Of a DNA stretch of 64,000 nucleotides, positions 18,801-63,580 are shown piece by piece. The DNA comes from Eublepharis macularius. Lineage: Eukaryota; Chordata; Lepidosauria; Squamata; Eublepharidae. Numbering within the stretch: the first letter of the stretch is position 1; each line of letters opens with the position of its first letter. The stretch covers positions 8,434,501 to 8,498,500 of the forward strand of contig NC_072798.1 in assembly GCF_028583425.1 (NCBI RefSeq), read 5' to 3'. A program made the translations under genes and the position numbers. A model generated the notes under the pieces. That model saw only the letters and a program-made list of their open reading frames with translations, ran no database searches and was not told where the DNA came from.

Positions 18801-21800
18801 GAAAACAGGTTCGAGTAGCTGGATTTTTTTTAAAAAAAATCATTCCCTGGAGTTGAGCTGTCAGTACGTTCCCGATGTTCTCGAGTATCATGTCTTCTGT
18901 TCTTTGTGCCCTGTGCACTCTGGCATTGAAACTGCAGCACAACAGACCCTATCAATTTCCAGTTCTCAGTAAGGCCTCATAATATCTGTGTCTGCTGATC
19001 TCCTGTTCAACTTTCCATAGACAGCAACTCTGGATCCTCTTCCTAATCCTCCCCTCATCACAATCGTCTTCTCCCTGGGTAGTTTTCCAAGCCCTGTCCT
19101 TTCCCCCCTGCCCCAGCTCCCGATGTTTACAAGCGTTGTGTTTGCATGGCACATCCACTGGCTACTTTTCTGGCATCTTTGACTGTGTGGGTAGCTGTGG
19201 GAGCGTAGAACTGAAATGCCCTTTGTGAAGGCCACATTCCAGTTAAGATAACACGACCAACTTGTCTCCATTCTGCACATCTAGTGCTTGAAAGTCCATC
19301 AATTGATTTTACAGCTCAAGTTGGATTAATTTGGGGGTTGATTGGGTTACTGTGATCACTTCAGCGGATGAGCCTTGGGATGCGCTTGGCGAAGCATATG
19401 CCCTTCAATCATTGTATGAGCGTTGGCGCTGGCTGCCAGAAGGCAAGAGGCCCAGTCTGCTGTTTGCAGGGTCACGTTTGCTTTCATCTCTCTTCAGAAG
19501 CCTACCCAAGGCAGCATTCACGGCATCTTTGGTGTTCTCTTTCCTGTTCTTTCCCTCGGGCAAGTGTCTCATTACACCTCTGTCCTGGGTAATTGCACAT
19601 GACAGAAATAAGTTCCTAAGTCTGCTTGTCAGGTTTGTTCAGGTAGCTGGGATTCATATGTTCAGGGAGCATCTTTCTATTTTCTCCCTACACATCCGAC
19701 TTTAAACATCCTGACTCCTTCACCTCTCAAGTCTTGAAAAGCCCCAGCTCCTGGAATAACCATGCCTTTCTCTGGAAGAAAAGTTTTTTCCCCACAGCTC
19801 TTCTGGTTCCATATTAGGGGTGTAAAATGCAGCATTTTGTATACACTTGCAGTGGTGTATGCTGGTTCTTTCGTGCCATGCGGTACTAAGTTGCTGACTT
19901 CAGAGAGCTTGCTGCTTTGGCCTTACAGCATCTTTCCCCTAAGTAAATACAGCTGTCTCAGAATCTCTCTCTGTGTATATGAGAACCAACTATTGGGCCT
20001 ACTGGCAGGCTCCTTCTCCCTCTGAGTCGGAGGACATCCTGGGTTTTCCCTCTGTCCAATCAGGGAGGCAGGAAAGTTGATCTTTCTTCCCCTTCCTGTC
20101 TGTATGTGGGAACACCCCCTGTACTTCCAGTTCCTTTCCTGCCTCAGGGGAGAGCAGTTCACCTTAGGCTAGCTCTGCACTGCCTTTACTACTTTCTACC
20201 CTGTATCTTCTATTTACACTCTTTCTTCCTCTCACCCCTTTTATCTACTTTATTTCTGCTTTCTACTTCACTTTTATCCTTTCCCCTTCTCCTATATCCT
20301 TCCTACTTGGGACGGCCTAGGAGAAGATTGAAAGCTGAAGCCAGAATGGCCTCTGTGGCCTCGTCTGATTCAGAGGAGAGCTTCATGGAGAGGGCGAGCC
20401 ACCCCCCAGGAGCTGTCTTACCGATGGCGGGGGTGTGCTCAGCCGGCGCCGGTTTGCCTTGCGAGGCTGAGCGGCTCCCCGGCGAGAAGATGGCTCCCGA
20501 GGAAGATCGGCCCTCAAGGAAACGGCCCCGTCTCCAGCAGAGGGCGCCGCAGAGCTCTTCATTCCAGCAACAAGAGGCCCCGAGCAACAGCGACGACGCA
20601 AATTTCTTTTCGGCGGCAAAAGACGGCGCGGCTAGCGTTTTCCCGCCAATGCCAACCGACGCGCTTCCCAACCTCCCGGCGGGAGAAATGGGACAAGAAC
20701 GCGGCTTCGAAGCCCAGAACAACCAAGTAAGTGCCGCCTATCTCTCTATGCCCCCAGAAGTGATGGGTTTCTTACGGCAGACTATGAGGGAGGAGATCGT
20801 GGCCCTGCGTAAGTCTGAAGAAGCACAGTCTTCCCAGCCGTCTTGCTCCAGGGGACACAAGCTTCCCAAGGGAGACCCGATATCGCTGCGCCTTGGCCCA
20901 CCAAGGCAGCTAGAAAGACCCAATCTAATGCTACTGGGGGGACAAGGGGCTGGATAGAGGACGTCCCTTCCCCTAGTGAGGACTCTGAGGGTGGAGAATT
21001 CCTCTCTGAGGAAGAACAGGAGGATGAGTCTTCTAATACTGAACATCCGAACAGGCTGTTCCAGATGGATGATTATCAATATCTCCTTGCAAAGACCCTA
21101 TCTGCCCTCGAACTCCAAGAGTCGCCCAGGGGGGAGGATGAACCATCTCCTAGGGACCCCAGTATCAGACCCAAGGGGAATAAAGAGTTCTTCCCTAGGT
21201 CAGAGGAGAGAACCAAGGTCTTTCCCTTCCCTGAATTCTATGAGAGACAATTAAAAGCTGAATGGGCCACGCCATCTTCTTGCAAACACTTCTCTAATAA
21301 TGTTAAGAAGTTGTATTCTCTCCCCAGTTTTGCCACTGAGCTGTTGCAGGTTCCTGCTGTGGACGCACCAGTAGCCGCTTTGCAATCTCACGGCCTTCTG
21401 TCAGAAGACGGTCAAGGGGCAATTAAAGACAGCCTGGACAAGAAGGGTGACATTGCCCTGAAGCGAACTCATGAGGCGCTCGCCATGGCAATTAAAGCGT
21501 CGGCCATTGCATCTACAGTTTCACGAGCGTCAGTGGTCTGGACCAGAAGACTGATTCAATTGCTGCCAGACAACAGCAAACGTCTCCTGGAGGGAGCAAA
21601 TAGGATGTTGAAAGCCAGCACCTTCACGGCAGACGCCACTCTTGATGCGATGTCCTTCTGTTCCAGAGCTATGGCATCTACCACTGTCACTAGACGTCTG
21701 TTATGGCTCAGAGCGTGGCAGGCCGACATCCAATCCAAGGTCATATTGTCAGCCTACCCCTTCCAGGGGAAGAAGTTGTTTGGAGACCTACTAGACAAAA

Positions 21801-24800
21801 TACTGGTGGAGACAAAGGACAAGAAAAAAGCCTTACCTCGACATCTCAGAGGGAACGAGAGACGACCTTTTCGCTTCCAGTCTTTCAGAACGAGCCATAC
21901 CTTACCCAGACCACGACAAGAGACCAAGAGAAGCTGGTCCTTTCCTAGATCGCAGTCCCGCAGAGGTGCCTTTTCGTCCAGACCTCACAAGCCATCGGGA
22001 CCCCGGAGCTTCAGGTCAGACGTGGAGGACAAAGGTCAGAAGCCCTGACTCGAAGGAGGCCCCGGTGGGAGGGAGACTGCTTCTTTTTCGCCAGCAATGG
22101 GAGACTTCCCAGGTGGACGCCTGGGCTATGGAAGTGGTGTCGTCTGGCTACTTAATAGAATTTTACTCTCTTCCACCGGAGCGGTTCCTTATATCTCCTC
22201 TCAAGAAAGACCCAAGCAGAAGAGCAATAACCATACAAGCTGTGCGTCACCTACTGGATATCAGAGCTGTGGAGCCGGTACCACAACGCGAGAGGGGAAC
22301 CGGGGTATACTCCATCTTTTTCACGGTCCCCAAGTGGAATGGAGACTGGAGATCCATCCTGGATTTAAAGTTCGTGAACCAGTTCATCAGACTGCGACAT
22401 TTCAGGATGGAGACCCTGCGTTCCATCGCGGAGGCGTTGAGACGGGGAGTACCTGACGTCTGTGGACCTGACAGAGGCCTATCTCCACGTACCCATTGCT
22501 CCACCTCACCGACGCTTCCTAAGGTTCTGTGTCAAGGGCATGCACTTCCAGTTTCGCGCCATGCCCTTCGGCTTGGCAACAGCGCCAAGGGTCTTCACGA
22601 AACTGCTAGTTGTTCCGATTGTCCGACTGCGAGAGATGGGTCTACATCTACACCCCTATCTGGACGACATTCTAATACGGTCCAGTTCTCGAGAAGGGTC
22701 AATCAACGACACGCTCCTAACGATACAGACCCTGGAACAACACGGCTTCCTGATCAACAGAGCCAAGTGTTCTTTAGAACCGTCTCAAAGTCTAGAACAC
22801 TTGGGACTGATAATCAATACGCGTCAATGCTCCTTCTTCCTCCCGGAGGGGAAGATCAAGAAAACCAAACAGTGGACAATGAACATCATCAAGCAACGCC
22901 GGTCCTGCATCATGGAGCTGACCAAATTGTTAGGTCTTCTCGTGGCCAATTCGGAAGCCATCTTCTGGGGGCGCTTTCATTCCAGACCTCTACAAGCTCT
23001 GCTACGGCCCTACCAGCACCATATTGCTCAGAAAAGAACCATCAAAATTCAAGTGCCTCTATCGGTCAAGAACAGCCTTCGATGGTGGACCATCGTGCTC
23101 AACCTTCGACAAGGCAAAAGTTTCCTGACTCCTCAGCCCATCCAGGTTTTCACGGACGCGAGCCTCTCAGGATGGGGCGCATCATTGAATGGCCTACCGG
23201 GACAGGGCCGGTGGTTGCCAGCAGAACGCCAACTTCCCATCAACGTGCTAGAGTTGAGGGCAATCCATCTGGCCCTCATTCACTTCCGGGAACATCTGAC
23301 CTTCCAACATGTTCTCATCCGCACGGACAATGTGGCGGCGAAATCATACATCAACCGGCAAGGGGGTTCCAAATCCTCTCGTCTACAGAAGGAAGCGCAC
23401 AAGATCATCAGCTGGGCGGAGGACAACCTTCTATCTCTGCAAGCGGAGCACATCAGGGGAGTGCTCAATGTGGAAGCGGATTGGCTGAGTCGAGAGTCGT
23501 TACATCCGGGGGAGTGGTCTCTCAGCAGAGAAACGTTCACACTGCTAACGGATCACTTCGGCACTCCAGAGGTGGATCTTTTCGCGTCACCGCAGAATCA
23601 TCAAGTGCCGAGATTCTTCTCCAGATACTTTCACCCGGAGGCAGAGGGCACGGACGCCATGACATCGCCATGGCCCAGGGGCCTGCTGTATGCGTTTCCC
23701 CCTCTTCCGATTTTACCGAAACTTCTGAGAAGGATCCAGGATCAAGCAGCCACAGTGATCCTAGTGGCTCCTTACTGGCCCAGGAGACCGTGGTTCTCGG
23801 CCCTGCTGTCGCTATCGACCCACTCACCATTCCGCTTGCCAGTGCTTCCGGATCTGCTTCAACAGGGACCGTTCTGGCATCCTCACCCAGAATGGTGGTC
23901 TTTGACCGGATGGAGATTGAAAGGCGGTCATTACTCAGTGTAGGATATCCAGCGCGTGTCGTGGACACCATGCTTTCCTCAAGAAAGAGATCTACGAATA
24001 GGATCTACAATTCCACGTGGAAAGCCTTCGTACGGTGGGGAAAACGCAAGAAAATTGACCCTATGTTCCCGTCTATACGTGACATCTTGGGGTTTCTACA
24101 AGAAGGCCTAGACAGGGGATTGAAGCCGCCCACCTTAAAAAAGCAGATTGCGGCAATCAGCACGGTGCTTCCAAAGGTGGAGTCGTCCACCTTGTCCACT
24201 CATCCTCATATTAAGAAATTCCTGCGGGGAGCCACCTTACTGAACCCCCCTACGGTGCATCGATTCCCAACCTGGCGATTAAGCGTTGTCCTCAAGGCTC
24301 TTACCAAGCCACCCTTCGAGCCCGTACGGGACATCCACCTCAGGTGGCTGAAATTAAAGACTGTATTCCTAGTGGCCATTACATCGGCACGTAGGATTTC
24401 TGAGCTGAGCGCACTATCAATTAGGCCGGATTTATGCATATTCCACAAAGAGAAAGTGGTTCTCAGGTCGGATCCAACATTCCTCCCCAAGGCGTACTCG
24501 AGATTTCATCGAACGCAAGAGATTATACTTCCTTCTTTCTCACCTAATCCTCAGCATCCAAGAGAAAGAGAGTGGCACACCTTAGATGTGCGCAGAGCAC
24601 TCAAGACCTACATTATTAGGACTGAACACCTACGTAAGACGGACTCCTTATTCGTCAATATTGCCACGCCTAAGGTAGGACAGAGAATGTCTTCATCGTC
24701 CATTGCCTACAGCATCAGGACATGTATTGGCGAGGCATACAAGGCTCTTAAGTTGGAAGTTCCGTCAGGTATTACGGCTCATTCTACCAGGTGTGCAGCC

Positions 24801-27800
24801 ACCAATGCGGCCTTCAGACGGTATGCCTCCATAGAAGAGGTCTGCAAGGCAGCCACCTGGTCTTCTGTTTCGACCTTTATCAGACATTATCAGTTACACA
24901 CGTACTCGTCATCGGATGCAGCATTTGGTAGAAGAGTCCTGCAACACGTCATAGAGGACGAAGATCATCTCCCACCCGGATCTTGAAGGGACTGCTTTGG
25001 GAGCACCCAGGATGTCCTCCGACTCAGAGGGAGAACGGCCCCTTGGATACTCACCGTGAAGGGTCCTTCTCCTCTGAGGTAAGGAGGACATCCTGCCCTC
25101 CCGAGCTCTTCGTCCTCTGCCTAATTGTGTACTAATCTGTTCCTACTCTCCTTCTACCGCTGCATTAACAACCTGACTTCTGTTAATATTCCCTTGTTCT
25201 AACAGTTTCTAGTTAAAAAAGGGTTCATAACTAGTCATAGTCTTGACAGTTCTTTATTTGAAAGTTTGTTCTCGTTTCAGTAATAGTTATCTAGTAGAGT
25301 GACTGAATTGATGACTGCTGTGGGGAGACCTCTGGATCTGGAAGTACAGGGGGTGTTCCCACATACAGACAGGAAGGGGAAGAAAGATCAACTTTCCTGC
25401 CTCCCTGATTGGACAGAGGGAAAACCCAGGATGTCCTCCTTACCTCAGAGGAGAAGGACCCTTCACGGTGAGTATCCAAGGGGCCGTTCTGCTTGAGGGG
25501 GAGGACATGCTAATACATTTGGGTACTCCTTTCCAGAAATTAGACTGAGCTTTCTGACTCTAAGAGGGAGGGAGTGATCGACTTTTAACATTCAAAGACT
25601 TCTGCAACTGGTAATAGTCAATAATGTGACTTGTTTGTTTGAGACCAATATGATCTTTGGGAAAGCTGGCATTACTAACAGCAATACTTTAAGCAACAGG
25701 GAGAGATTGCATAAAAAAACATCATGGAACTGTTTGAGTTGACAGATGGTCTGCGCACGCACACATGCGCGCACACGCACACACCGTAAATTATTGTAAG
25801 TTAGCCAGTAGTGACCCCAATGAGAAGAAAAAGTTGGGTGGGTCTAGGATGCCCTCCTTGGTCTCAAGCAGAAGTTATTACTTCATTGTAAGTCCAAAGT
25901 TCTATTCTTGTTAGAGTGGCAAAGAATATTCTGATACATTTAGCATGTCACCAAGTCAGATTCTCAGTGATGCTACCTCTGACAGAGGTTTGAGAGGAGG
26001 AGGACAGAGAGCCTGCAGAATGCCATGCAAACACTGAGTTGAAAAATGGTGGCTAGCAGAAGGTTATTTGAAAGAAGCCCTGATCAAGAATCTCATGGCT
26101 GTTCTTGAGTGTGAGAAACCTCCAACTTGTGGTAGGACTGGAGCTGACGCTGCCACCTTCCTGTATGAGTTATTCAACCTCAATCTTTGTGCCAAACTGT
26201 CCTGAAGGAAGTGAAGATTTTGCCACATGAGTCTACCAGCAGATGTTTCCCTGTGCACCACCTAACATCCACCTCCCAAGTGAAGTCATATATACATATA
26301 GGATGTGCACAGACACAGTGAGGACAGTGTGTCTTTCTTCCTATAAACACATGAAGCTGCCTTCAAAACACTGGTCCATCAGCATCACTGCTGTCTTCTC
26401 AGTTTGACAGCAGCTCTACAGGTTCTTTCTGACTTGATCTTTGCTGGAGATGCCAGGGATTGAACCTGAGATCCTCTGCACACTAAGCAAATGCTCTGCC
26501 TTTGTGCCACAGCCTGTGAGAAGTCTTCTGAACACAACAGCTGCCACTCATTCTCTACGTGGTTAGCTGGATCTGGGTGGGAGATTAGGCCCTGAGTTAG
26601 CATGTTGGGAGATCTATGCTACTTCCAAGGAGAGCTGTCAGATCCACAAGGCTATAAAACCAGATTCTTCTGACCACAAGTGCCACACACATCATTTCTT
26701 CTCTGGTCTTCATCATCTTGGACAATAAAGGGATTAGAAGGAAGGCATGCAGAAGAAGTGAAGGCCAAGGAGCCAAGAAGGCATTTGTCTGTTCTAATTG
26801 ATGGTACTGGAAGTGAGAGAAGAATCTCTGCAGCTTGTTTTTCACCTCGTGGGAGAATAGATCCACCTGGGGATGTCTGTAGTCCATGGATATTCCCTGG
26901 AATAGATGTGGACTGAGAAACACTGTGCTTGATCTAGTGTGCTCTGATTGAACCAGTATGCTTCTAAATTCAATTAACCCTTGATGTGTTCTGCTCTTAA
27001 GGACTATAGGGGAATAATCTCACCATATCTTGTAAACTAGATTTTGTTCCCCTCATCTATGACAGCTTCCAGATGTAGAATAGTCTGAGGGGGGTGGGGA
27101 GAGATGGCTTTTTGGAAGATGGATAAGGAAGCCATGCAATTCAAAACACTAAATAGTAGACTGCAGATCATACAGAGTTTTGGATTTTCTGGATGGTCTT
27201 CCAGGTATGGGTGGAAATCAGCGTGTTTCATCCAAAGGTTTGCCACTATAGAAATAAAAACATTGGTACAAATTCTGCAACTGGAGGCCAGATCAAAGGG
27301 CACTGCTCTTTGGCAACTCAGAAAGCCACATACCAGTGAAAGCAGCCTGTGTGTAGGGAAGACCAGAACTTTTAGATAAGATTCTGTCAAGTTGATGGAT
27401 ATCATAACACTTCCTGGCTGGAGGGCACCCACAGTTAATTTCAAAGTTTCTAGTTTGAACCTCCTATTCCTCACAAAGCTGTTGAAGAGTTTGAGGTACA
27501 GGATAGCTTGCCAACTGCAGTTTCTCTTGGAAATTGTGGGGAGGAAAATGAGCAGGTATTTCACAATTGCTGATACCACGGCACTATGTCTGTTGCGTTG
27601 ATGATTCCCAGTAGATGGTTGATCACATCTAATTTCTGTTGTTTCTTGAAAGGACTCTGAAACGTAAGGGACATGAATCTGTCTTGGAGTTGAGACAGAT
27701 AATATTGTGTATTGTTGTCCCTTCCTAAAAAGATAACCTACATATAGGGTAGAGGAGGTCTTGAGGGCCATAAAGAAGGGGTGACTAGACGAAGCCCGTT

Positions 27801-30800
27801 TATCTTCAGGGAATCTCTGAATTACTTGCTGTTTAGGAGTGCCTGGTAGTTTGATGCTGTCTTTTCTAAGAGGTTTCTTGATTGCGCTGCTTTTAACTGT
27901 TTCATTTGCCACAAGAAAAAGACCCTCACGCTCGGCATATAATGGGAGCCACTGTGTCCCAGTCACTCACTGCACCATTCCTTAATCCTGTTGCCATTAT
28001 TTACGCCTTTGATAAGTTCTCTTGTCAGCACCAGGTGTCGGTATTGCACACTATGATTTTGTGGCTGAAATACTGTTCTGCAGTGCCCTCTTTCACTGTT
28101 GAATCATGGCTTATGCCTACACGCTCTCTCACCCCCCCCCCCCAAGCTTTGCGGCTTTGGGGCTCATCGACATGCAACTTGGCTGGGCTGTCAGCATGTT
28201 GCTAGCAGATGATGTTTTTCTTCGGTGCACACGCTTCTTATTTTTGGACTTGCTGTTTGCTTAGAATGATCTGGGCTGTTTGTGAAGATGGTATGTTTGC
28301 CTCTGAAAAAGAATGAATGTAAGACATTCTCCTGAGTCCTAAAGTTGAGGCTAAGCAGCATGGCCTGAAGGTGGGAAGGGTGTAGCTAAAAATCCTCCTA
28401 GTGCATTTAATCATTTCAGAAAGCCATTGAAAGACTATTTCCAGAATATCTAGTTCATATATAACTGTTATGGTGGGAAGAGCAAAATGTCAATGGTGCG
28501 ACCTCATTTGGAATACTGTGTACAATTCTGGTCACCACACCTCAAAAAAGATATTATAGCACTGGAAAAAGTGCAGAAAAGGGCAACTAGAATGATTAAA
28601 GGGATGGAACACTTCCCCTAGGAAGAAAGGTTAAAGCGCTTGGGGCTCTTTAGCTTGGAGAAACGATGACTGAGGGGTGACATGATAGAGGTTTACAAGA
28701 TTATGCATGGGATAGAGAAGGTAGAGAGAGAAGTATTTTTCTCCTGTTCTCACAATACAAGAACTCATGGGCACTCAATAAAATTGCTGAGCAGTCGGGT
28801 TAGAATGGATAAAAGGAAGTACTTCTTCACCCAAACAGTGATTAACACATGGAATTCACTGCCACAGGAGGTGGCAGCTTCAAGCATAGACTGCTTCAAG
28901 AGGGGATTGGATAAGTATATGGAGCAGAGGTCCATCAGTGGCTATTAGCCAGAAGGTATAGATGGAACTCTCTGTCTAGGGCAGTGATGCTCTGTATTTT
29001 TGGTGTTTGGGGGAGCAATCAGTGGGAGGGCTTTTAGTGTCCCTTCCCCACTGGCAGACCTCCAGATGACACCTGGTTTTTTGGCCACTGTGTAACATAG
29101 AGTGTTGGACTGGATGGGCCATTGGCCTGATCCAACATGGCTTCTCTTATGTCCTTTGCTAGGCTGGTAGCCATGCAAAATACATTCAGTAGACCTAGTG
29201 ATGCTGAAAAATCTAGGTGCCATAATCTAAATAGCAGCCAGGAAAGATATGAGAGGTTGAAAGATAATGGGGGGGAAACACAAAACTGTATCATGGCTAA
29301 CACTTTGAAGAATGTGTTTCTTGGGTAAAAAAATGGCTTTGCTACCTTGCCTGAATTGCTGTAAGATCTCTGAAATGAGTATTGGATGCAAGGGGTGGGA
29401 CTGCTGATGGCTAGTTTGAGAAATGATTTAACCAACTCATCCTTGTTTTAAAATGTAGCTTTGAGGTCTAACTGCCAGTTCTTCCTATTGAAGGGTGAAG
29501 ATGTGAATCGGACACTGGAAGGTGGGCGGAAACCTCTTCACTACGCGGCCGACTGTGGACAGCTTGAGATCATGGAGTTCCTTCTGCTGAAAGGGGCTGA
29601 TATTAATGTATGTTGTCTCAATCGAACTGGGATAAAATTCTGTGTGAATGGCTAACTGGAGTCAGTTTTGGGGAGATCCTCTTCGATGGTAAAGCCATTA
29701 TTTAGAAGACCCACCTTGTAGGGTAAAGGTATCATCTTTTGTTTCGATGTGAGTTTTGCAGGCATATGTGTCATTTCAAAACTTGGTTTACTAAAAGAGA
29801 TGGTGAAATGAGTTACATGCAAGAAGCATCAGTGTTTCTTAAGACACTTGGGGCTCTGATCAGCTACTCCATATTCAGTCTTTGGTAATGGTGACGGACT
29901 ACTTCAGGTAATTGAATAGAACTAATTGGATTAATCTAGGTGACTCCAATTAGTTTGATTGAACGGTACATCAAAGAAGCTGTGTGAATGCCTCCCCCCT
30001 CCCTGCCACCTTCCTGGCTTCTGTGAATAAATGCATTGCCAGAATGGCTTGTGTCAAACCAATAACAGAATAAGTTGATCTGATGTATTGTTAGCATGCC
30101 AGTATATAATGCATGGTTCACATCATCTTGGAATCCTGTTTGTAGCACCCTGGTGGCCTGTATGGGCCATGATTTCCACCAGTTGCCTTCCTCTGCAAAC
30201 CTTCAGTCCCCATGATTATTTCCTGTCTCCCCAGGAGCAAAGTTTCAGGAGGTTCAGTGAGCTGCGGCAATATTGGGGGGGGGGGGCGGGAATTAGTGGA
30301 AACCTCCCTTCTCCTTTCCAAACCATTCTGTGTATTTAAATGTCCAGAACGTGTGCTTGAACATAGGCAGTTTTTAATTTGAATTAAGTTTCGGAATACA
30401 TGGCAGTATTAAAACTTTATTAAAGTAGTCTACTCTGTATGGATATCTGAACATTTTTAATCAGGCGTGGCCTTTCTTTTTACAGGCTCCAGACAAACAC
30501 AGTATCACTCCACTCCTTTCAGCAGTCTATGAAGACCATGTGTCTTGTGTGAAGTTGCTCTTGACAAAGGTGAGAATTAGAGGGCTTTGGCAGGATCTTT
30601 TTAAGGCCTCCATCAAGCCATAAGCAGCTCTGTTAGTGAAGCCAGAAACAACAGGTTTATAAAGCAAGAAGACAATTTATTATAGTTAGTGCTGAGTGGC
30701 CTCATTCAGAGACCACTGTATCGGTTGTAGCCACTTTTTGTTGGGTTTGTTGTTGTATGAATGAGCTAGCACCCCTCCCCCCCGGCAAGTGTTCAGGGGA

Positions 30801-51077: not shown

Positions 51078-51751
51078 AGCACTGAAGTAGAGGGGGGAGA
51101 CTTTACCGGGGGGAGAAGAGATAAATGTGAATTAATAAGCAGTCAGATTAATAGATTGATATATATATATAGATATATACAGGTTAACAAACAGAACATA
51201 GATAGAAAATAATTAACTATAAGGATTAAATATAAGGATTGATTAACTAACAATATTTTCTTTCTTTTTGGTAAGTTTTGTACCAAACTGAATGTCTGAA
51301 GATATAGATGAGTCAAATTGATTGACTACGTGATGAGAGATATATAGAATTATTACAAAAAGATAGAATGAGTAATATATAGAGAATAAGTCAAATTGTT
51401 TGATATAAATGAATGTATGATCTATATGGTTTATGATATATAGAAATATTTGAAATTGGGATAAAGTGTTTATCTAAGATGGAAACAAAGACTTACAGTT
51501 TGGGCATACAATGTTAAAAATAGTTAAGGATGTACTGCTTAGAATAACGGAGAATATATATTTGTTTCAGATAGAGGAAGCTAATAAAAGTAAGGGAAAG
51601 GGGACAAAGGGTGGGAAAGCTGTTGGAAGTCAACAAAAAGGGGGGGAAAGGGAGGGGGTTAGAGATGAAAAAATTGGGGAAAATTGAATGTAAATGTAAA
51701 AATAATGGATTCTAACCCAATAAAATTTTTTTCAAAAAAACAAAAAAAAAA
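51078..51751 (+). other. L1-A 3' UTR and tail
   Basis: AT-rich, with a ggggggaaagggagggggt G-tract shortly before AATAAA and an A-rich end. The G-rich tract in the 3' UTR is a known L1 trait. L1-B has the same at 48235-48908. Confidence 0.85.
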
Positions 51752-51769
51752 ACAAACACCCTTCACGGC

Positions 51770-52132
51770 CTTGGACCTGCATATACGCGGGACGGCCTCT
51801 CCTGCTAGGCTGTGCCCTGACAGCGTCTTCCAGCTGTTCAGGGCCTTTTATAGCCGCCACCTTGAAAATGGGCAAAGTCAACCACTGCCCATACATGTGC
51901 ATTCTCTGTTGGGGTCCCCCGCCTTGTGGAATGGCCTACCTGAAGAGGTCAGGAAGGTGCCCACCCTCCTGGCTTTCCACTAAATAGATAAAACCAGATT
52001 GTTCAGGAATGCATTTGTCAGAACTAGAATTTTCTTCTGCTCTGTTTCAGCATTTCCTCAGCTCTGTATTGGATTTCTGCTTGTTTTCAAATCTTTGCCA
52101 ATTTACATTTATATACCCTATTACATTGCTTA
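51770..52132 (+). mobile_element. L2-type LINE remnant, part 2
   Basis: Continues the element of 38622-39792 after L1-A: PALWNGLPEEVRKVPTLLAF is a typical end of an L2/CR1-like ORF. A 3' UTR follows, interrupted at 52146 and resumed at 52490-52575 with an ataaataacataaacaaac tail. Confidence 0.7.
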
Positions 52133-52489
52133 TTGAAATGTCTCTAGATCCAGAGGAGTTAGCCGTGTTAGTCTGTAGTAGCAAAATCAAAAAGAGTCCA
52201 GTACTTTTGCTACTACAGACTAAAACGGCTAACTCCTCTGGATCTATGACCATGGAAAGCACCGCATTCAGCCGAATGGAGAGGAAATCCATCAACCTCA
52301 TGAAGAAACTGGCACAGATACAAACAGACATCATCTTTCTTTCTAAATGCAAAAGACTGGACATTCTACCCAAGGGACTTTGTGTGAGGAATCCATTGAA
52401 ATCCACTTACTACACAGACTACAGTGAGAAACTATGCAACACCTTATCCAGGAAACTCTTAAATACTGGACTCTTTTTGAAATGTCTCT
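52133..52489 (+). mobile_element. Penelope-like element fragment with family-2 repeat and 13-bp target duplication
   Basis: The insert 52146-52476 is bounded by ttgaaatgtctct at 52133-52145 and 52477-52489. It opens with an inverted pair of family-2 ends (ccagaggagttagccgtgtt ... ctactacagactaaaacggc). It then reads MERKSINLMKKLAQIQTDII, FLSKCKRLDILPKGLCVRN, which fits the N-terminal part of PLE proteins (Phe-Leu...Cys...Ile-Pro-Lys-Gly-Leu). It ends in actggactcttt, again family-2-like. Most of the coding region is missing. Confidence 0.65.
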
Positions 52490-52619
52490 GTAATTGGTTG
52501 CATTGACTCACACTGCATAATCCACCTTAAGTCTCTGAGAGAAAGGTGGATTATAAATAACATAAACAAACAAACCCTATAACAGAATGGTTCAGAAAGT
52601 CATTTTATCAAGGGAAAGG

Positions 52620-52860
52620 GACTGTGGATTATACCACTGTGTATACGGCGTATCTCGTTTGCTATATGTATGATCCTACCATCTTCCTGCTTATTCTGCT
52701 TTGTGATCTGCATCCTGTATTATGTCTAATATTGATTCAGATTTCTGCAATACTAGTAGATTGGTTATTATATCTTATTCTGTTGATTGCTTTGATTTGC
52801 ACTGTGTAACATGCCTCCAGTCTCAGTGATAAAGGACATCTATAAATACAGAAAATAAAA
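52620..52860 (+). repeat. L2-like 3' UTR fragment
   Basis: AT-rich, ending in gataaaggacatctataaat; resembles the 52490-52575 and 62168-62440 tails. Confidence 0.45.
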
Positions 52861-53579
52861 AGGGGGAACGGAATTCCATTCTGTCCTCTTGTAATACCTT
52901 GATGGGTTTGCTTGTAATTAACCTAACTTGCCCTCCAGCGTACAGTGACACATTTTTCTCCCAGTATGTCCCCGAGTACAGTATGGCAGAAAGCCTGCTT
53001 TTAACCCACTGAGGCCCATTATTGCGCCTCCCCCTGCAAAAAAGTTCAAGAATGAAATATAGATCTATAGGTGGCATGTTAGACTGAAATGTGGTGCTGT
53101 GATTTGGACACCAGGCTGAGACTGTCAACGTCCTCCAATCATGGGCCGTTTTCACGCTGCTTACTGGCCACAGAACATTGCACCAGAAAGACGGCGTAAC
53201 ACAGGTGAATAATCAAGCAAATGTATTGTTTGAAACAAACTCTGGTCCCTGCCTACCTTTCTCAGGTATAAAAGGTTTCCTTCTTATCTTTTAGCACGCA
53301 AAGGAGAGAGATCTAAATTGGTTCTTCATTCATTGTGGATCTGATTAAGGAATAGGGTGATGACTGGCCACAAGTGAACGAGGACAAAGTCAGTCCCCTT
53401 CGTAATTGTGTAGAAGAGACTTGACTTTATGTGACAAGCAGGACAGACAAGCAAATCACTGGTCTTAAAGGAACTCTTCCTCAGGTCTTGAGCTTATTGG
53501 AGGTGGGGAAATTAGAATGCTGGCAAGACCCCGATGGTAGCAAGCTGAAAATAGTCCCTGTTTGTAGATTAGTGCCCTG

Positions 53580-53770
53580 ACCTGGATGGCCCAGGCTAAC
53601 CTGACCTCAGAAACAAAGCAAGGTCAGCCTTGGTGAGTACACTGATGTGAGACCACCAAGGAAGTACAGGGTCACTATGCAGAGACAGTCAATGGCAAAC
53701 CCCCTTCCATCTCGTCTTGAAAACCCTCTAGGAGCACCGTGAGCCTGCTGTGACTTGACAGCACCTCTCA
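53580..53770 (+). mobile_element. 5S rRNA-derived SINE
   Basis: Head cctgacctcagaaacaaagc, aaggtcagccttggtgagta and tgtgagaccaccaaggaagt follow the 5S rRNA order; tail gtgacttgacagcacctctc. Related to 36918-37075. Confidence 0.7.
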
Positions 53771-54811
53771 GATTAGCAATGTGGCAACAAAGCCCCAGAC
53801 TGGTGTTCGGTTTGCCACCTTTTAAAGTGGTTCCTCTAATGGTCTCCTTAATACCACTGTCATCACAAATATCCCATAATGGTTTTAACCACCATACCAT
53901 GAAAAGCTGGAACGGGCCACTTTTAGTTTCTATTGAGTGGTAATTGTCAGTGGGCCGAGACTGTCTCACTTCTCCTCTCCTGTAGCAGCCCCAAACGACT
54001 CCCTACATGCTGCTCCTAGAGGACAGGGGACCCTCACGGATGAGGTGTAGCTGTAGATCTGCAATGAGAAGGGAAATTGGCAAAAATCACACTGCCTTTC
54101 CATGACTGGGAATGTATGTGAGATCCAACCTTATCACAACCAATAGCCCACAAATTAGCAGGCAAGCCTTTGGGTTCCCCAGAATCCTTCCTCTGGCTGG
54201 ATATCCAGTTCAAAAAGAGAGGCTGGGGGAAGGGTTAAGACAAAAACAGGAATTAAAAAATGGCTGTCGCGATGCACTGGCTCCTTCCAAGCGACTACAG
54301 GAACACACTGTTTCCCCAAAGTACAGTAGATTCCTATAGTCACCCAGAAGGTACATCCCAACAGTAATCTTTGTCACTTCGTTTAGCATCACGCGGAAAT
54401 GTTTTAGACTAAAAGGTCATAGATATAAAAGGCAGCCTAACATCTGACTGTACCTCCTGCATTTCGTAGCTATTTGACCCAACTTTTTTATTCTAGTTCA
54501 TAAAATGCTTATACTATAACGCAGCTGTTAAGTCTTCACAATGACATTTGATTCTGTTTCCTTTCAACATATCCTCTTCAGCAAGGCAGGCCTTTATGTC
54601 TCCACAGTAAACCTGAGCACATACAATCCTGTACCCAAACAATCCAACTGGTATACATCCCTGCAAAAGTTGAATTCTACTACTTGCAAAAAATGCAAAA
54701 CACAAAAAGAATTTTGCGTAATTTGTTCTGCCTGCTTTAGCAGTGTACATTGTTCAACCTTGGAAACTGGGCAGGAGCCCAATCTTGAAAATCGAAGCAC
54801 AATCTTATTAA
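53771..54811. other. Spacer, right part, nothing recognised
   Basis: Unique-looking sequence between the 5S SINE and arm B. No exon, RNA gene or clear element seen. Confidence 0.45.
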
Positions 54812-54919
54812 GGCAGCAGTTGGCTAGCTGCAGTTCTACAAAAGCATTGAGTTATTGCAAACTGACAGGTCAACAATGAGGGCTGGGGAGGATGACAGAG
54901 AAATGAACAGAGCTACACA

Positions 54920-56849
54920 TTTCTCCAGAACACAGTTCAAGTTTATTCCATTCATTCTCGCAACACAAACTTAAAACACAGCATTCTTTAGCGTTCGAAG
55001 GTGTGTGAACCATGATAATAATAAGCCCAACGTTGGGGAAATAGTGAACTGTCCTGGAAGAAGATCAAATGTCAAAATGAACAAAACACTCTTTTGCATC
55101 CCTCATTGGGTAGAAAGATATGACGTTTCTTCATGTATAAAACAGAAGACTGTTCTGTGGAGGCGGGGGGGGGGGGGTCGCATGCAACGTGGCAACTGCT
55201 CGACTGAGGACAGTCCACTCTCAACAGCTTCTTCTATCCGTCTATCCACTCATTTAGCATTTGCGTTCAAGAACAAAAACTACGTTAGCAAAGCGACGCC
55301 TGTACAAACGGGAGCAGAAAGACATTGAGTTTAAACTGGAATCTGAAAGTGACTGTATATTGTTGCCAGAGGTTTGGTATTTGGATCGTTAGCTTCAACC
55401 ACCGCAAGTCTACTACCCAGAAGAGAAAGAGAAACAAAGCACAATTTGAATTGTGGTACTAGCTTCCAATTCCACAGGGATCACAAAGACTTTTCAGATA
55501 ATAGTCTCACTTTTTTTTAGAATGGTGAATCAATTGCTTGATTTTTTTCTGAAAGTTAAATGCTTTAAAAATACGAAAAGGTACACTCGGCGCTATAAAT
55601 ATGTATACAAAACCTGACTGCATGTACCTTGGAGGCTATCGCAGCTCTTAATGTGAAGCCAGGGCAGCTCTTAATGAGGTTAATGCGGCACAAATTTTAT
55701 CCACGTCTTTGAGCAAGAGCATCCAAGCTTTCTTTCTACTGGCAACTCCAAGCCAACCAAACCTTAGCCTAACATGAAACCTAACAAATGAGTGTCCCTA
55801 GAAAGCTACCTTGCAATATGGCAGTGAAGGGACCCGTATAAACCAACCTCCTTTATTGGGCACTAACTGCAGCCGATACCAGTCCGCTGAGACCTGTTGT
55901 GCTGTGGGGTTTTTTTTGGTTTTTTGAATACAGTGCTAAAACAGTGAATCGACTCTCATCCCAAAGGTGCATGCAGCACAGCTAAGATCAATGTGGTGAG
56001 GATGTAGCTGGAGAAAGAATATTCCAGCTCTCTTTAAAAGAACGGTAGCAGCCCCAAGGACTGAGAGCCACTTCTGCTTACTAATTAAGACATTTCCTTC
56101 TAAACCAAAGGGCAAAGCAAGCATCCTCTAGCGCCAATGAGTCTGGAGCCGCCTCTTTGTTTCAGTATCTTTTATGATGCAGAAGTAAGGAATATCCAAT
56201 CGGAGACCTTACAAGAGCATTATTTTTCCCAGGATGAGGCACCACGTGCTAACCTGGCTGCTTCTCGAGTATAAAGTCTTGGGTAGCGGAACACACACAT
56301 GATTCTTCAGTGTGTTCTTTGCTAAAACAGTCAAGAGTTAATACAGCATCCAATTATTAAATATTGGGACATTATTAACAAATGTTGGTATTTCAAGGTT
56401 TATCTAAGGCCCAGTTCTACTGAAGCTGCCCCAACTGCCTTGATTTGAAATGAAGGTATAAAAGCACTGGGTTTTCACTGCCTTAATAAAGCAAGAAAGC
56501 ACGGAATAGTGCTTCCATTTGAAAAATTTCTCAGAGGAGAATTAGAAAAGTGTATAGGCCGCCTTTCAGATCACATTCTTCCCCTTTTCCTGGCAGATGT
56601 TCAGTCTCACTTGTATGAGGAGGAAAGGGTGCCTTAAAAAACAGCAGTCCTAAGGAGACACCAGTTACATGGATTTCTACTCTCACCAGATGGATTCTCT
56701 CTTTTTCAGAGGAACCCTAACAAAAGTGGATGTGCTGTGATGGTTTTCCCTCCCCCCCATCCTTAGTGGAAGAAGCTAGAAGATACAAAGAGTGACAGAC
56801 AGGCAGCAGTGTGAGGCCACAGGAGAGACGCGAGATCTCAGTCCGTTCA
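54920..56849 (-). other. MTPN copy B 3' UTR
   Basis: Reverse complement of the copy A 3' UTR, with the poly(A) signal kept (TTTATT on the plus strand at 54942-54947). Shorter than copy A because of indels. Confidence 0.75.
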
Positions 56850-56936
56850 TCACTGGAGGAGAGCCTTGATGGCCTGATTGTCGGTGGCTTCCAAGGCAGT
56901 TAGTCCATCTGGCCCTCTGACAGTCTTATCAGCACC
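56850..56936 (-). CDS. MTPN: MTPN copy B exon 4
   Basis: Identical to 32426-32512. Confidence 0.93.
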   Translation of the reverse strand, partial: GADKTVRGPDGLTALEATDNQAIKALLQ

Positions 56937-59923
56937 CTGTCAAAAGAGGAGAAGAGCTGCTGACACTCTGAAGACAAGGCCCAGCTGTACGCACCAGCAG
57001 TAGTTTCTCATGAGGACTACATTCATCTTTACTTGGCTTATACAAGTCCCATAATGCATGACTTCTTCGTATTTTACGCCCCATACAAAGTTTCATCCTA
57101 CATTAACAGTGTGTGCACACAACCGTTCATCTTAAACATACTTAAATTCACAGTTCTGCATCCAGCCAGCTTTCCCATTTCTTTTCACCAAATTCCCCTA
57201 AGTTTGGACCCATCCCATATGACTACCCCCCATACCAATTTTTTTTTAATATTCAGCTCTTTAGCAGTAATTTATTGCAACCAACTAGATGGAGCTGTAA
57301 GTCTTCAAAAACAAGCCAACCGAAACCAGGAAGTTAGAACACAATTTCAGGCATTTATAACCAAATCTCTGTCCAATAGGTATCGGGGTGACCAGATTCG
57401 GATCAGAGGTGAATCTCAATAAAATATCAACTCAACCATCATTAATAACAAAATAAAAATCTACAAAGACTGCCAAAAATGAGACAAGGAGTAACTGGAA
57501 ACCAAGACCTTCCTTATAAGCAGAAATACCCAAGGCACCATTAAAAACCATAAAATCAGTGGGACAACATACTTAGGACAACAGTTTCAGAGGGAGGGAG
57601 AGACAGAAGAAGCACAAGAGGTGTTTTCACCTGGTGTTCCACACCTGGATCGCCACAACTAAGAGGCCCTTGTTCCTCAGGGTGACCCAAATGATGAGGG
57701 TAGATATAAGGAAGAGGATTAGTGCTTCAACTACCAATTTGAACTGGGACAGAAGCGGATCCACAGCCAAGAAAATTTACTGGGATAATAAGCTTGGTTA
57801 AGTGTAGAAGGGACTGGAGTCTTTTAAGAAACAATGTTTTTCTACTTAGAAGAGTTAATTTTCCTTGTTCTTTCAGCAAGCAGTGGTTTAAATATTTCCA
57901 ATTGCTAGCCTTAAGCAAAAGTAGACTCATTCTGGCAACAGCAGACTGAGTGGTCAAAGGTACAAGAAGAGCAGAGGCAGCATACAAAATGCTTACCGGA
58001 GAACACACACCATCATGGAGATGAGGGCTTCAGCATAGATAGCCATGGGGGCCCAATCCTACTCAGAGGTTACTTCTGACACACTTTGTTGTGTATGGAA
58101 TCTTACACAGAACCCGTTTTTAAGCAGATCCATCATGCTGGTATTTATGGGCACAGGCTGTTCCAGTGACTACAGTCAAGAGGTTTATTGTAAAATGGAT
58201 GGCCTTTTCAAAATGGAACTGCTGCTTTGGCCTCTGGGGGCACCTAGCTGCCTCACCGGAAGCTAGACTGGATGGATGGTTGTTGATCCAGCGCAGCTGC
58301 TCCTAGGGAGGTTCCCGAGAAGGTGTCAGGATGTTCTTTACGCCAAGCATTGCTCTACCACATTGCTACTCCCCCGAACACATGCAGGGAAGAAAAGGGT
58401 GCAAGGTAATAGCACAAAGACAAATCCAACATAAAGGAGAGCAGCAGCAACTGATACAGTGGTCTCTGATTGCGGCCACTTAGCACCGACCATAATAAAT
58501 TGTCTTCTTCTCGCTTTATAAACCTGTTGTTTCTGGCTTCACTACAGAGCTGCTCATTCACTAGCATGTCCTCCTTGCCTGATGGAGGCCGTGAAAGGAT
58601 GATGCCAGAGCCCCCCTATGAGGCAGTCCTCTAATTCTCACCTTTGTCAGGAGCAGCTTCACACAAGACACATGGTCTTCATAGACGGCTGAAAGGAGTG
58701 GAGTGATACTGTGTTTGTCTGGAGCCTGTAAAAAGAAAGGCCATGCCTGATTAAAAATATTGAGATATCTATCCAGAGTAGACTGCTTTAATAAAGCTCT
58801 AATACTATCAGGCAGTTATTCCGAAACTTAATTCAAATAGAACACTGGCTGGCGTACAAGCACACATTCTGGAGACTTAAAAACACAGAATGGTCTGGAA
58901 GGGAGGTTGGAGGTTTCCACTAATTCCCCCCCCCCCCCGCTTCAGCATTGCTGCAGCTCACTGGCCCTCCTGAAACTTTGCTCCTGGGGGGGGGGGGGCG
59001 GGGTCCAGAGGAACCACTCTCAGAAACAGTCATGGGGATTGAGGATTTGCAGTGGAAAGGGAACTGGTGGAAATCATTGCCCCCCGCCCATAAATGCCTT
59101 TCGTCTTGAGATGTGTGGCTGCATATGGGCCACCAGTGTGCTGCAAACAGGATTCCAAGATGATGGGGACCACACATTATACACTGGCATCCTAATGATG
59201 AAGCAGATCAATTTATTCTGTTATTGGTCTGATGCAGGCCATTCTGGCAATGCATTTATTATGTACCATCTCAAAAGCTGGGGGAGGAGGCATTCACACA
59301 GCTTGTTTGATGTGCAGTTCAATCAAGCTAATTGGAGTCACCCAGATTAATCCAATTAGTTCTTTTCAATTAACCGGGCTAGCCAGTTACCACCAAAGAC
59401 TGGATAAGAGACATGATGCTTCTTTTATGTATACTCATTCCACTATCTTTTAGTAAACTCGGTTTTGAAATGACACACATGCCTGCAAAACTCACATCGA
59501 AACAAAAGATGGTATCTTTTCGCAGGGTTTTTTTTCTGGGAAAAGAGGTGGCGGAACTCACAAGAAGGAAATGAAGAAGAAACACATGGGATTCTTTGAA
59601 ATAATATTATTTTCAAGCACTATTGCCGAGTATTTTCAAGAGGTGTCGGAACTCCGTTCCACCGCGTTCCCCCTGAAAAAAGCCCTGCCTTTACCCTACA
59701 AGATGGGTCTTCTAAATAATGGCTTTACCATAGAAGAGGATCTCCCCAAAACTGACTCCAGTTAGCCATTCACACAGAATTTTATCCCAGTTCGAGTGAG
59801 ACAACATACATTAATATCAGCCCCTTTCAGCAGAAGGAACTCCATGATCTCAAGCTGTCCACAGTCGGCCGCGTAGTGAAGAGGTTTCCGCCCACCTTCC
59901 AGTGTCCGATTCACATCTTCACC
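56850..59923 (-). CDS. MTPN: Myotrophin copy B, exons 2-4
   Basis: Minus-strand exons 59923-59810, 58725-58642 and 56936-56850 encode residues 25-118 of myotrophin, ending KALLQ and TGA. All splice borders are kept (gtatgt, ctttttacag, gtgaga, ttttgacag). Protein sequence is identical to copy A; the only DNA changes are three synonymous ones in exon 3 (GCA/GCC and two TTG/CTG). This pattern suggests constraint or gene conversion, not a dead copy. Exon 1 and any promoter would lie to the right of the window, so I cannot tell if it is expressed. Confidence 0.92.
58642..58725 (-). CDS. MTPN: MTPN copy B exon 3
   Basis: Three synonymous differences from 30486-30569. Confidence 0.93.
59523..59687. 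mobile_element. hAT-like MITE, copy B only
   Basis: Ends cagggttttttttctggg and, inverted, cccctgaaaaaagccctg. Inner arms ggcggaactcac and gtcggaactccgttcc are also partly inverted. Arm A has the empty site near 29720 (gggtaaaggtatcatctt). Confidence 0.75.
59810..59923 (-). CDS. MTPN: MTPN copy B exon 2
   Basis: Identical to 29494-29607, as are the ~30 bases before it. Confidence 0.93.
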
Positions 59924-61027
59924 CTTCAATAGGAAGAACTGGCAGTTAGACCTCAAAGCTACATTTTAAAACAAGGATGAGTTGGTTAAGCCATTACTCA
60001 AGCTAGCCATCAGCAGTCCCACCCCTTGTGTCCAATACTCATTTCAGAGATCTTACAGCAATTCAGGCAAGGTAGCAAAGCCACTTCTCAGCTCAAGAAT
60101 CAGGAAGAATGGTGAAATTTTTTAACCCAAGAAACACGCTCTTCAAAGTGTTAGCCACAATACCGTTTTGTGTTTCCCCCCATTATCTTTCAACCTCCCG
60201 TATCTTTCCTGGCTGCTATTTGGATCATGTCACCTAGCTTTTTCAGCATCAACAGGTCCACTGAATGTGTTTTGCATGGCTACCAGCCTGGCAAAGAACG
60301 TTTTGCTCTTCCCACTAAAACAATTATGTATGAACTAGGTATTCTGGAAACAGTCTTCCAATGGCTTACTGAAATGATTAAGTGCATGAGGAGGTTTGTT
60401 AGCTACACCCTTCCTACCTTTAGGCTACGCTGCTTAGCCTCAAGTTTAGGACACAGGAGAATGTCTTACTTTAATTTTTTTTCCAGGGCAAACAACTGAT
60501 ATTCACAAACATCCAAGATCATTCTAAACAAATAGCAAGAACAAAAATAATATGCATATGCACCTAAGAAAAATGTCAATTACTAGCATTGTGCTTTTTG
60601 GAGCTGTTCTTTTTATATTTCTACTACACACTTCCAGGATAAGCTTGTCTAGGTAAAATTAACATTTAAATTAAAAGAAATGCTAAACATTCCTGAAAGT
60701 GAAACATGATTATCAAAGCACGATTTATACTGATAAAGCAGTATATTCTAAAATTCTGAAACTTGAAAGATTGTACCACATTAAAATATTCCAGCATATC
60801 CCCTGCTTCTAGCATAACTCCCCAATCCCTTAAAATTGCAATGAATACATTTAGTGATAATCATGCATTTTAGCAATTTTAAATTTATAATTAATTTTAA
60901 AATAATTAAAATAATTTTAAAAGTATTGTTTAAAATACTAATTACTTTCTTTTGTGGAAAATAAGCCAATTGTGTCAAGTAAGCCAACTATCTTTGCTTT
61001 GGGTTCTGCTTTTTTTGCCTTTTCCCC

Positions 61028-61085
61028 CATGGGTCAGTAATGACTCGGTGCTTGCACGGGGGGACTACCTTTACCTTTACCTCTA
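61028..61085. repeat. SINE tail with ACCTTT units
   Basis: Reads gggtcagtaatgactcggtg, then ctacctttacctttacctct. ACCTTT-type tails are known from Sauria SINEs; the body is missing. Confidence 0.5.
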
Positions 61086-61365
61086 TTATTCCACTAAAAA
61101 GTTATGTCTTGGAAAACTATGTCAGTAAAACTGTCAGAGAACACTCATCAGCATCAATGCCACAATCCCCCAAGTATTGTGGCATTGAATGCACACCTCT
61201 TGATCTGATATCTATTCTTATTCTGAACAGCAACAGAGAAACAACAGTCACGCACCTTCCCCTCAACTTGTGACTGCTTACGAGCCTGTTTCCGTCCAAT
61301 AATAATCCCGCTGCTCTTACAATTATGCATAAACTGGTACAAGAAATCTGTGTTAGCATTATCAA

Positions 61366-61449
61366 AAAGAGTCCAGTAGCACCTTTAAGACTAACCAATT
61401 TTATTGTAGCATAAGCTTTCGAGAATCAAGTTCTCTTCGTCAGATGCCT
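61366..61449 (-). mobile_element. PLE-type repeat, family 2, best-kept hammerhead-like core
   Basis: On the minus strand 61443-61407 reads CTGACGA, then a GAGAA/TTCTC hairpin, GAAA, an AGC-TTAT-GCT hairpin, then A. This matches each conserved hammerhead position around the core. The rest is the family tail (gttagtcttaaaggtgctac, tggactc). Flanks share a short atcaaaa. Confidence 0.75.
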
Positions 61450-61520
61450 GATCAAAACAGTTAACATTAGAAACCCTAAGAAATCAAAATGAGCACATTC
61501 ATTCTAAGAAAACTTTCTTA

Positions 61521-61593
61521 AAGTCTGCAACTTCATGGAGAGGTCAAAAAAATGAAAATTTGGATCCAAACTAAAAGGTTTCCACAGAAGTCT
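61521..61593. repeat. Left arm of a 73-bp inverted repeat
   Basis: Matches the reverse complement of 62093-62167 with about three mismatches (ttcatggagaggtcaaaaaa, atttggatccaaa, ggtttccacagaagtct). Confidence 0.9.
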
Positions 61594-61734
61594 GATATTT
61601 GACTTATAATCAGGCTCAGAGCAGATGACAACGTAATAAATATGTATAATAAAAACATCCAGTAAAAACACTGATATCATATAAATACTATATAAAACAT
61701 ATTAGAGCAGCACACAATGCAGCCCACATCACAT

Positions 61735-62045
61735 GTTGGGAGAGCATCTTTCTGTTTCTGCCTTCACATTGGACTTCAAACATCCTGAGTCCTTCACGGC
61801 TTAAGTCTTGACCCCCCCCCCCTCCGCCCCTCAAATGATTATGCCTGGAGGAAAAGTTATGTTCCCCATAGGTCCATTTTGTACCTTTTCTGGTTCTGCA
61901 ATATTTTTCGACAAAAAACAGCACTCTAAAATTCAGTGTATACGCTTCGGTGCCGCATGATGCTATGCTGGCTTAAGGGAGCTTGCTGCGTTGACCCACA
62001 GCTTCTTTTCCCTACGTACTTAGACCAAAGTCAGAATCTGTTTAT
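61735..62045 (+). repeat. Segment flipped relative to the rest of arm B
   Basis: Matches arm A 19670-19985 in the SAME orientation (gagcatctttct, aaacatcctga, gagcttgctgc), while its neighbour 62455-62665 matches 19640-19430 in reverse. So a block of ~310 bp is inverted inside the inverted arm. Confidence 0.8.
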
Positions 62046-62092
62046 TAAAATTATTCCACCACCTGGTGGTTTCTAGTTACCTTGAGGTACTA

Positions 62093-62167
62093 GAAGACTT
62101 CTGTGGAAACCTTTTAATTTGGATCCAAATGTTCATTTTTTTGACCTCTCCATGAAGCTGCAGACTT
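62093..62167. repeat. Right arm of the 73-bp inverted repeat
   Basis: Inverted partner of 61521-61593; encloses 499 bp. Confidence 0.9.
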
Positions 62168-62440
62168 CACCACTATGTTGCCTTATATATCATCTGTTGC
62201 TTGAAATATGTACTCCTAGATACTACCTGTGCTTCATGTTGTCTAATGTCAGTCCTAGAACGGATTATGTTCTGTTTCAGCAATTCTTCAACTCGTACTG
62301 GATCCTTACCAATGCTATGACTTTGTAAAATCCTATGACATTGTTTATGGAAATGTCCTTGATACTGACTGTACTGATCCCACACTATGTAATCCAACTT
62401 CTCAGTGAGACAGACAGACTATAAATTACATAAATAACTA
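62168..62440 (+). mobile_element. L2-like LINE 3' end
   Basis: Reads ctgtttcagcaattcttcaa, gacattgtttatggaaatgt, ctcagtgagacagacagact and ends aattacataaataactaaat; resembles the 52.0-52.6 kb L2 tail. Not present at the matching site of arm A. Confidence 0.6.
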
Positions 62441-62668
62441 AATGAATCCCAGCTACCTGAACAAACCTGACAAGCAAACCTAGGAACATACTTCTGTCAG
62501 GTGCAATTATCGAGGACAGAGACTTAATGAGACATTTTCTTGAGGGAAAGAACAGGAAAGGGAACACAAAAGAAGCTGTGTACGCTGCCTTGGGTAGGTT
62601 TTTGAAGAGCGATGAAAGCAAATGTGACTCTGTGAGTGGCAGACTGGGCTTCTTGCCTTCCTGTAGCC

Positions 62669-62961
62669 TAGGGATCCCCAACCTTTTTGAGCTCTGACAC
62701 AGTGGGTGGGCACAGCAAGAAAATGGCTGCCACAACATGGCTGCCACAAGAGGTAGAGCCAGCCACAAAATGGCTGCTACAGCTTGCCTTCAGTCAGCTT
62801 GTGCTGTGGAAGCAGCTTCTGCCAAAGCAATGTTTTTAAAAACCTGCACAGCCAATAGTCAATCAGAAGTCATGCTTGGCATAAGCCCCACCTGGCGAGC
62901 ACCAGAAAAGATGTCAACAGGTGCAATGGTGCCCGCAGGCACCACGCTAGGGACCCCTGCA
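62669..62961. mobile_element. hAT-like MITE, copy B only
   Basis: Ends tagggatccccaacctttt and, inverted, cgctagggacccctgca, with GTAGCC repeated at both sides (62663-62668, 62962-62967). Arm A lacks it at ~19432. Confidence 0.75.
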
Positions 62962-63580
62962 GTAGCCAGTGTCACCACTGATACAATGACTGAAGGGCAC
63001 ATGCTTGACCCGGCGAGTCCCAAGGCTCATCCGAGCCACAACACAGGAATTTCAACGCTGAAGTGATCACGGCAAGCCAATCAATCCCGTTAATCTAACT
63101 TGAGCTGTAAAATCAACCGATGGACTTTCAAGCATTAGATACGCAGAATGAAGAAAAGTTCGTCACGTTATCCTAACTGGAATTTGGCCTTCACAAAAGG
63201 CATTTCAGTTCTATGCTCCCACAGCTACCCACACAGTCAAAGATGCCAGAAAAGTAACCACTGGATGTGCCATGCAAACACAAAGCTTGTAAACATCAGT
63301 CCCTGGGAGCTGGGGCGGGAGGAGGACAGGGCTTGGAAAACTACTCCAAGAGAAAAGGATCACGAGGAAGGAAGGATTAGGAAGAGGATCCAGAGTAGCT
63401 GTCTACTGAAAGTCGAACAGGAGATCAGCAGACACAGATATTATGAGGCTTTACCGAGAACTGGAAATGGATAGGGTCTGTTGCGGTGCAGTTTCAATGC
63501 CAGAGTGCAAAGGGCACAAAGAACAACAGACATGATACCAGCAGACATTGTGAACATGCGGACTGAGGTGCAAGGATGGA

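Follow-up and report, generated by a model that had tools for sequence, protein, structure and literature searches.

How can an old and partial copy of a gene keep every amino acid that it encodes? Partial gene duplicates usually decay. The question is raised by a stretch of 64,000 nucleotides from Eublepharis macularius (NC_072798.1, positions 8,434,501 to 8,498,500 of the forward strand; hereafter the window, whose own numbering is used throughout). In this window exons 2 to 4 of MTPN (myotrophin), a vertebrate gene with a regulatory role in muscle and on actin, are found twice, in opposite orientations.

The arrangement was delimited by self-BLAST, together with a sensitive search between the arms in inverted orientation (eight pieces). 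Arm A occupies 18,860-35,323 on the plus strand (16,464 bp) and begins within intron 1. Arm B occupies 54,799-63,563 on the minus strand (8,765 bp), and a spacer of 19,475 bp lies between them (35,324-54,798). The arms are collinear reverse complements, running from 18,860/63,563 to 35,323/54,799, and the best self-BLAST piece between them covers 1,700 bp at 94.3% (E = 0). Within the arm bounds, 5,312 columns were aligned in five blocks and 559 of these columns differ. The aligned fraction corresponds to about one third of arm A and three fifths of arm B, the arms being unequal in length. The first-pass annotation had proposed that MTPN exons 2-4 lie in an inverted duplication of tail-to-tail type, placing the arms at about 18.85-35.33 and 54.81-63.58 kb around a spacer of about 19.5 kb, and had suggested a self-comparison of the window. 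This comparison, run as self-BLAST, recovered the inverted arms and, with the sensitive search, upheld the proposal and refined the bounds to those given above.

Each copy has two AATAAA signals, at 33,510 and 35,173 in A and at 55,857 and 54,947 in B, which align base for base. In both arms the last of them is found about 150 bp before the inner arm end, so the duplicated unit extends from intron 1 to just beyond the end of the gene. Introns 1, 2 and 3 are partly alignable between the arms, meaning that intron sequence is present in both copies, and a retrocopy origin of copy B is ruled out by this retention. A young duplication is likewise ruled out, by the divergence of the introns. The two arms are thus long, collinear and homologous segments in opposite orientation, which is what defines an inverted segmental duplication. 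This one is real, old and tail-to-tail, and of MTPN it takes in most of intron 1, together with exons 2-4 and the 3'UTR. A partial and inverted duplication of this gene is unusual, yet it is of a known kind; another inverted segmental duplication with genes in its arms is presumably that of the emerin inversion on the X.

In terms of gene content, the coding part of exon 1 (codons 1-24, with Trp8) was located by tblastn with human MTPN at 15,483-15,554 on the plus strand, with the donor AAG/gtgagg. Its surroundings are CpG-rich, with a CpG o/e of 0.97-1.24 in 15.2-15.7 kb. Exon 2 (114 bp) is found at 29,494-29,607 (+) in A and at 59,923-59,810 (-) in B, and the two are identical. Exon 3, at 30,486-30,569 (+) and 58,725-58,642 (-), has three synonymous differences between the copies. 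The coding part of exon 4, including the stop, is again identical (32,426-32,512, + and 56,936-56,850, -). The first-pass annotation had described the same three exons with intact splice sites in both arms, and this was confirmed, with AG/GT at all; the acceptors and donors at all five splice sites of exons 2-4, as well as the stop codon, are intact in A and in B. Exon 1 and the arm A exons together encode a protein of 118 residues, and copy A is a complete four-exon gene. Exons 2-4 of copy B encode 94 residues, all identical to those of A.

We then compared the copy A protein with known myotrophins. The PDB search matched it to rat myotrophin (1myo) over residues 1-118 in one stretch (E 1.1e-71), with some many-repeat ankyrin chains outranking 1myo by summed score. 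The human MTPN query was checked against 3aaa, with which it agrees at 118 of 118 residues. Eight of the 118 residues differ between the copy A protein and human MTPN (2, 20, 51, 68, 79, 89, 97 and 105), six of them in exons 2-4 and therefore common to A and B. We take this to be much for so conserved a protein. Codon 51 is Met in both copies against Leu in human, which creates an in-frame ATG (context ATCATGG); that a start at this ATG would give a 68-residue product is pure speculation.

Three residues of V-1, Trp8, Asp44 and Glu78, are critical for capping-protein binding, and the KD for capping protein is 6.4 µM for W8A against 21 nM for the wild type, according to the available text of PMC2897767. 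The gecko gene encodes Trp8, Asp44 and Glu78 in exons 1, 2 and 3, respectively, and all three residues are kept in the copy A protein. Copy A is like known MTPN (myotrophin/V-1, a capping-protein inhibitor) in these residues and in its length, and its sequence suggests that it should yield a normal capping-protein inhibitor. It is unlike human MTPN in the eight residues listed above and in the double presence of exons 2-4.

The search with human MTPN found exon 1 once in the window, outside arm A, and exons 2-4 in each arm. No exon 1 of copy B was found within the 64-kb window, where this copy consists of exons 2-4 only. There is also no CpG-rich start near arm B, the CpG o/e at 63,400-64,000 being 0.27-0.31. 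The outer edge of B (63,541-64,000, 460 bp) gave no significant match to the sequence upstream of A (9,001-18,900), with a best E of 0.045. The single exon 1, positioned outside the duplication, tells us more about the locus than any other feature and was absent from the first-pass annotation. Since exons 2-4 of B cannot supply Trp8, copy B either has a first exon beyond position 64,000 or is kept by exchange with A.

Next, the divergence between the copies bears on whether B is decaying. Outside the 3'UTR, noncoding sequence differs at 497 of 3,612 sites (13.8%, or about 86% identity), and the K2P distance is 0.161 over a somewhat larger set (3,666 sites). Both values come from alignable blocks, so they are probably lower bounds. 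The proximal 3'UTR of arm A that is common to B (32,513-33,936, +) has 62 differences in 1,412 aligned sites, 17 in the first 901 and 45 in the next 511, and has changed more slowly than the introns.

A contrasting picture is seen in the coding sequence. Over exons 2-4, the 285 bp to which the coding comparison is limited, there are three synonymous differences, all of them in exon 3, and no amino-acid difference, where the noncoding rate would lead us to expect approximately 11.3 synonymous and 27.9 amino-acid changes. With both copies free to change, the probability that no amino acid differs is 7e-13; with only B free, it is 9e-7. With none against about 28 expected, copy B is still kept intact and is not a freely decaying pseudogene. 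A dead pseudogene, intact by chance or through youth of the duplication, would account for the missing exon 1 within the window, but it has to contend with the second of these probabilities, as well as with five intact splice sites and an intact stop. We consider such a pseudogene very improbable, and this reading is strongly disfavoured.

The synonymous sites are quiet too (P = 0.004 for three or fewer changes at the noncoding rate), and this favours another explanation. Copy B may have neither a first exon nor a normal protein, with conversion or inversion crossovers that overwrite or swap its exons 2-4 with those of A. Both arms start within intron 1, so exon 1 would still be joined to whole exons 2-4 after an inversion between them. 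The lack of an exon 1 for B within the window agrees with such exchange. Human inversions that leave exon sequence unchanged, or that swap first exons, are described in the available text of PMC3961182.

Further support for exchange comes from a tract of low divergence around exon 2 (29,440-29,729, +). Here 3 of 176 noncoding sites differ, against 490 of 3,431 elsewhere in the arms (Fisher P = 3e-8, for bounds picked after inspection). The tract ends at a hAT-like insertion that is present in B only (59,516-59,688, -). We also permuted the noncoding sites, taken as independent, under three mismatch penalties and with bounds that were not preset. Penalties of 10 and 20 gave best segments of 29,229-29,782 and 29,428-29,765, each reached in 0 of 2,000 shuffles, and at a penalty of 5 almost the entire arm was chosen as the best segment, a result matched in 50 of 2,000 shuffles. 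The pattern of the tract agrees with gene conversion over a short distance, but it could also have come from a conserved element in the intron. The noncoding flanks of exons 3 and 4 are about 10% divergent (20 of 199 and 19 of 194 sites differ), so conversion tracts there would have to be very short. At about 14% divergence, exchange between the arms should be rare over most of their length. Maintenance of copy B by exchange is, in our view, a tentative explanation and the chief competitor of the one that follows.

The explanation that we favour, with roughly an even chance of being correct, is that A and B are two expressed genes under purifying selection. In this scheme, exon 1 of copy B would have been lost, or never received, within the window, and the copy would be driven by a first exon past position 64,000, either duplicated or new. 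Purifying selection on both expressed copies would keep exons 2-4 intact, and local arm-to-arm exchange may have helped around exon 2. We infer the expression of B, the site of its first exon and the precedence of selection over exchange. Two observations stand against this explanation: the low synonymous count and the near-identical flanks of exon 2 are unexplained by protein-level selection alone, and the window contains neither an exon 1 nor a CpG-rich start beside arm B. What the window shows of the intactness of B is compatible both with selection, given a first exon past 64 kb, and with exchange with A.

Some other arrangements would also involve both copies. One promoter and exon 1 could face two sets of exons 2-4, inverted relative to each other and interchangeable, between which occasional inversion would switch. 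Both sets would then stay under selection, with one expressed at a time. We regard this switch as improbable. Alternatively, the inverted copy may act via RNA, with read-through from A into the spacer and B, or in the reverse direction, giving antisense or hairpin RNA that would tune MTPN. The convergent orientation would allow this, and exon 4 and the 3'UTR are near-identical, as seen in the first 901 sites of the latter. On the other side, the two AATAAA signals of each copy precede the spacer, and the synonymous-only change in exon 3 is left unexplained. We find regulation of this kind highly unlikely.

As for other features of the 3'UTR, LUZP6, which we take to be located in the 3'UTR of MTPN, had no significant match (best E 1.2). 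A link between miR-375 and MTPN is also assumed here, and no miR-375-type site (GAACAA/GAACAAA) is common to both arms. The matches to this motif are found at 33,979, in a segment present only in A, and at 54,755 and 54,728, outside arm B; no site is therefore shared by the copies.

Each arm contains segments that are private to it. In intron 1 of A, and not seen in B, there is a DIRS1-like retroelement (20,007-25,462, +), a name that we give by assumption. Its inverted ends are 95% alike; one of its frames, open over 500 codons, is of the RT/RNase H type (RVT_1), and another is LAP2alpha-like (PF11560). Two other segments are present only in A. The first (28,491-29,150, +) falls where B is contiguous, at about 60,298, and the second (33,937-34,708, +, 772 bp) is in the 3'UTR region, with B contiguous at 55,428/55,425. 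Both may be insertions in A or losses from B, as these two events are indistinguishable for private segments without transposon ends. On the minus strand, open frames of 97 and 84 aa overlap the 772-bp segment; the two frames had no Pfam match (E up to 0.001), and one frame, compared with the PDB, gave a best E of 0.81.

In arm B, besides the insertion at the end of the exon 2 tract, a second hAT-like insertion absent from A is found at 62,663-62,961 (-). Its ends are CAGGGGTCCC and GGGATCCCTA, and it is flanked by GGCTACTG and GGCTACAG, which are 7/8 alike. We take both insertions to be hAT-like from such ends. Arm A also has a tRNA-like Rfam match at 26,445-26,514 (-), which is marginal (29.1 bits against a cut-off of 29) and for which ARAGORN reported none; it is perhaps a tRNA-derived repeat.

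These private segments are relevant to the question of whether the locus is an assembly artefact, in which two haplotypes, or distant paralogous loci, were joined in inverted order. One L1 inside another makes up the bulk of the spacer, and L1 copies 95-98% alike (self-BLAST) are misjoin-prone for assemblers. The older element covers 39,793-51,751 (+) and is split by the inner one, at about 43,097-48,908. The L1 label is taken from endonuclease and RT domains. A tandem duplication in the spacer, with direct repeats of 3.3 kb and 2 kb, is ruled out, as these repeats are the one L1 nested in the other.

Both L1 target-site duplications are exact at 18/18 bp, the outer at 39,775-39,792 and 51,752-51,769 and the inner at 43,079-43,096 and 48,909-48,926. 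Across the L1 block, the outer pair links the spacer's A side with its B side, and we estimate that two 18-mers would agree exactly by chance, in a search this large, with a probability of the order of 1e-6. The spacer is thus contiguous across the L1 block, and a misjoin inside the block is ruled out by the outer and inner duplications; the single-copy joins at 35.3-39.7 and 51.8-54.8 kb lie outside their reach. The flanks of the block, when joined and translated, yielded no firm result. An ordinary haplotype misjoin is ruled out by the 13.8% noncoding divergence and the private segments. The presence of such segments in each arm, several with transposon features, makes two joined haplotypes very unlikely. 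The first-pass annotation had also argued against haplotypes joined in error, and its argument holds given this divergence, the private hAT- and DIRS-like segments and the 18-bp duplication that spans the block. Taken as a whole, an assembly artefact is an unlikely source of the arrangement.

Upstream of MTPN and on the same strand, we found the last exons of a TRIM24/TRIM33-like gene, from the PHD finger to the bromodomain (3,666-9,119, +). Its exons match a stretch of human TRIM24 at 61-87%, in a comparison made with TRIM24 only, and the PHD part is slightly closer to TRIM33 (E 7.9e-21) than to TRIM24 (E 1.8e-20) in the PDB. In human, MTPN and TRIM24 are presumably some Mb apart. A short dispersed element is found in the same region at 2,473-2,774, 13,484-13,714 and 14,551-14,727, in direct and inverted orientation and about 96-98% alike, with the last copy adjoining a 63-bp AT repeat (14,753-14,815).

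The first-pass annotation had likened the locus to palindromes on sex chromosomes and at amplified loci. This likeness was not supported, since noncoding identity between the arms is about 86%, where about 99% or more would mark a palindrome of the sex-chromosome type, and since a third of A and three fifths of B can be aligned. Primate Y and rabbit SRY palindromes have arms about 99.9% identical, and the locus resembles them in its inverted, gene-bearing arms, in the spacer between these and in possible arm-to-arm conversion, as far as the available text of PMC3403216 goes. The MTPN arms, in contrast, are old, unequal and transposon-ridden. The structure is an old, decaying inverted segmental duplication and not a near-identical palindrome.

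Human inversion loci offer a second comparison. Like such loci (for example AQP12A/AQP12B, HsInv0241), the locus has inverted arms, a spacer, gene parts in both arms and identical or near-identical exons, and an inversion would leave the gene readable. Unlike them, it has about 86% noncoding identity against 94% for HsInv0209, copy B is without exon 1 in the window, and no inversion was seen (human loci as given in the available text of PMC3961182). Among the matches listed for MTPN or myotrophin duplication in the literature, none reports the present duplication, which is not proof of absence; those listed for myotrophin with gene duplication and paralogs are on fish.

Copy B is notable for being old, at about 0.16 substitutions per noncoding site, and yet keeping every amino acid of exons 2-4. 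With a start of its own, it would count as a second gene for myotrophin, one that may lack the Trp8 contact to capping protein. Without a start, the locus would offer a natural setting in which to see whether a promoterless copy can survive through arm-to-arm exchange outside near-identical palindromes.
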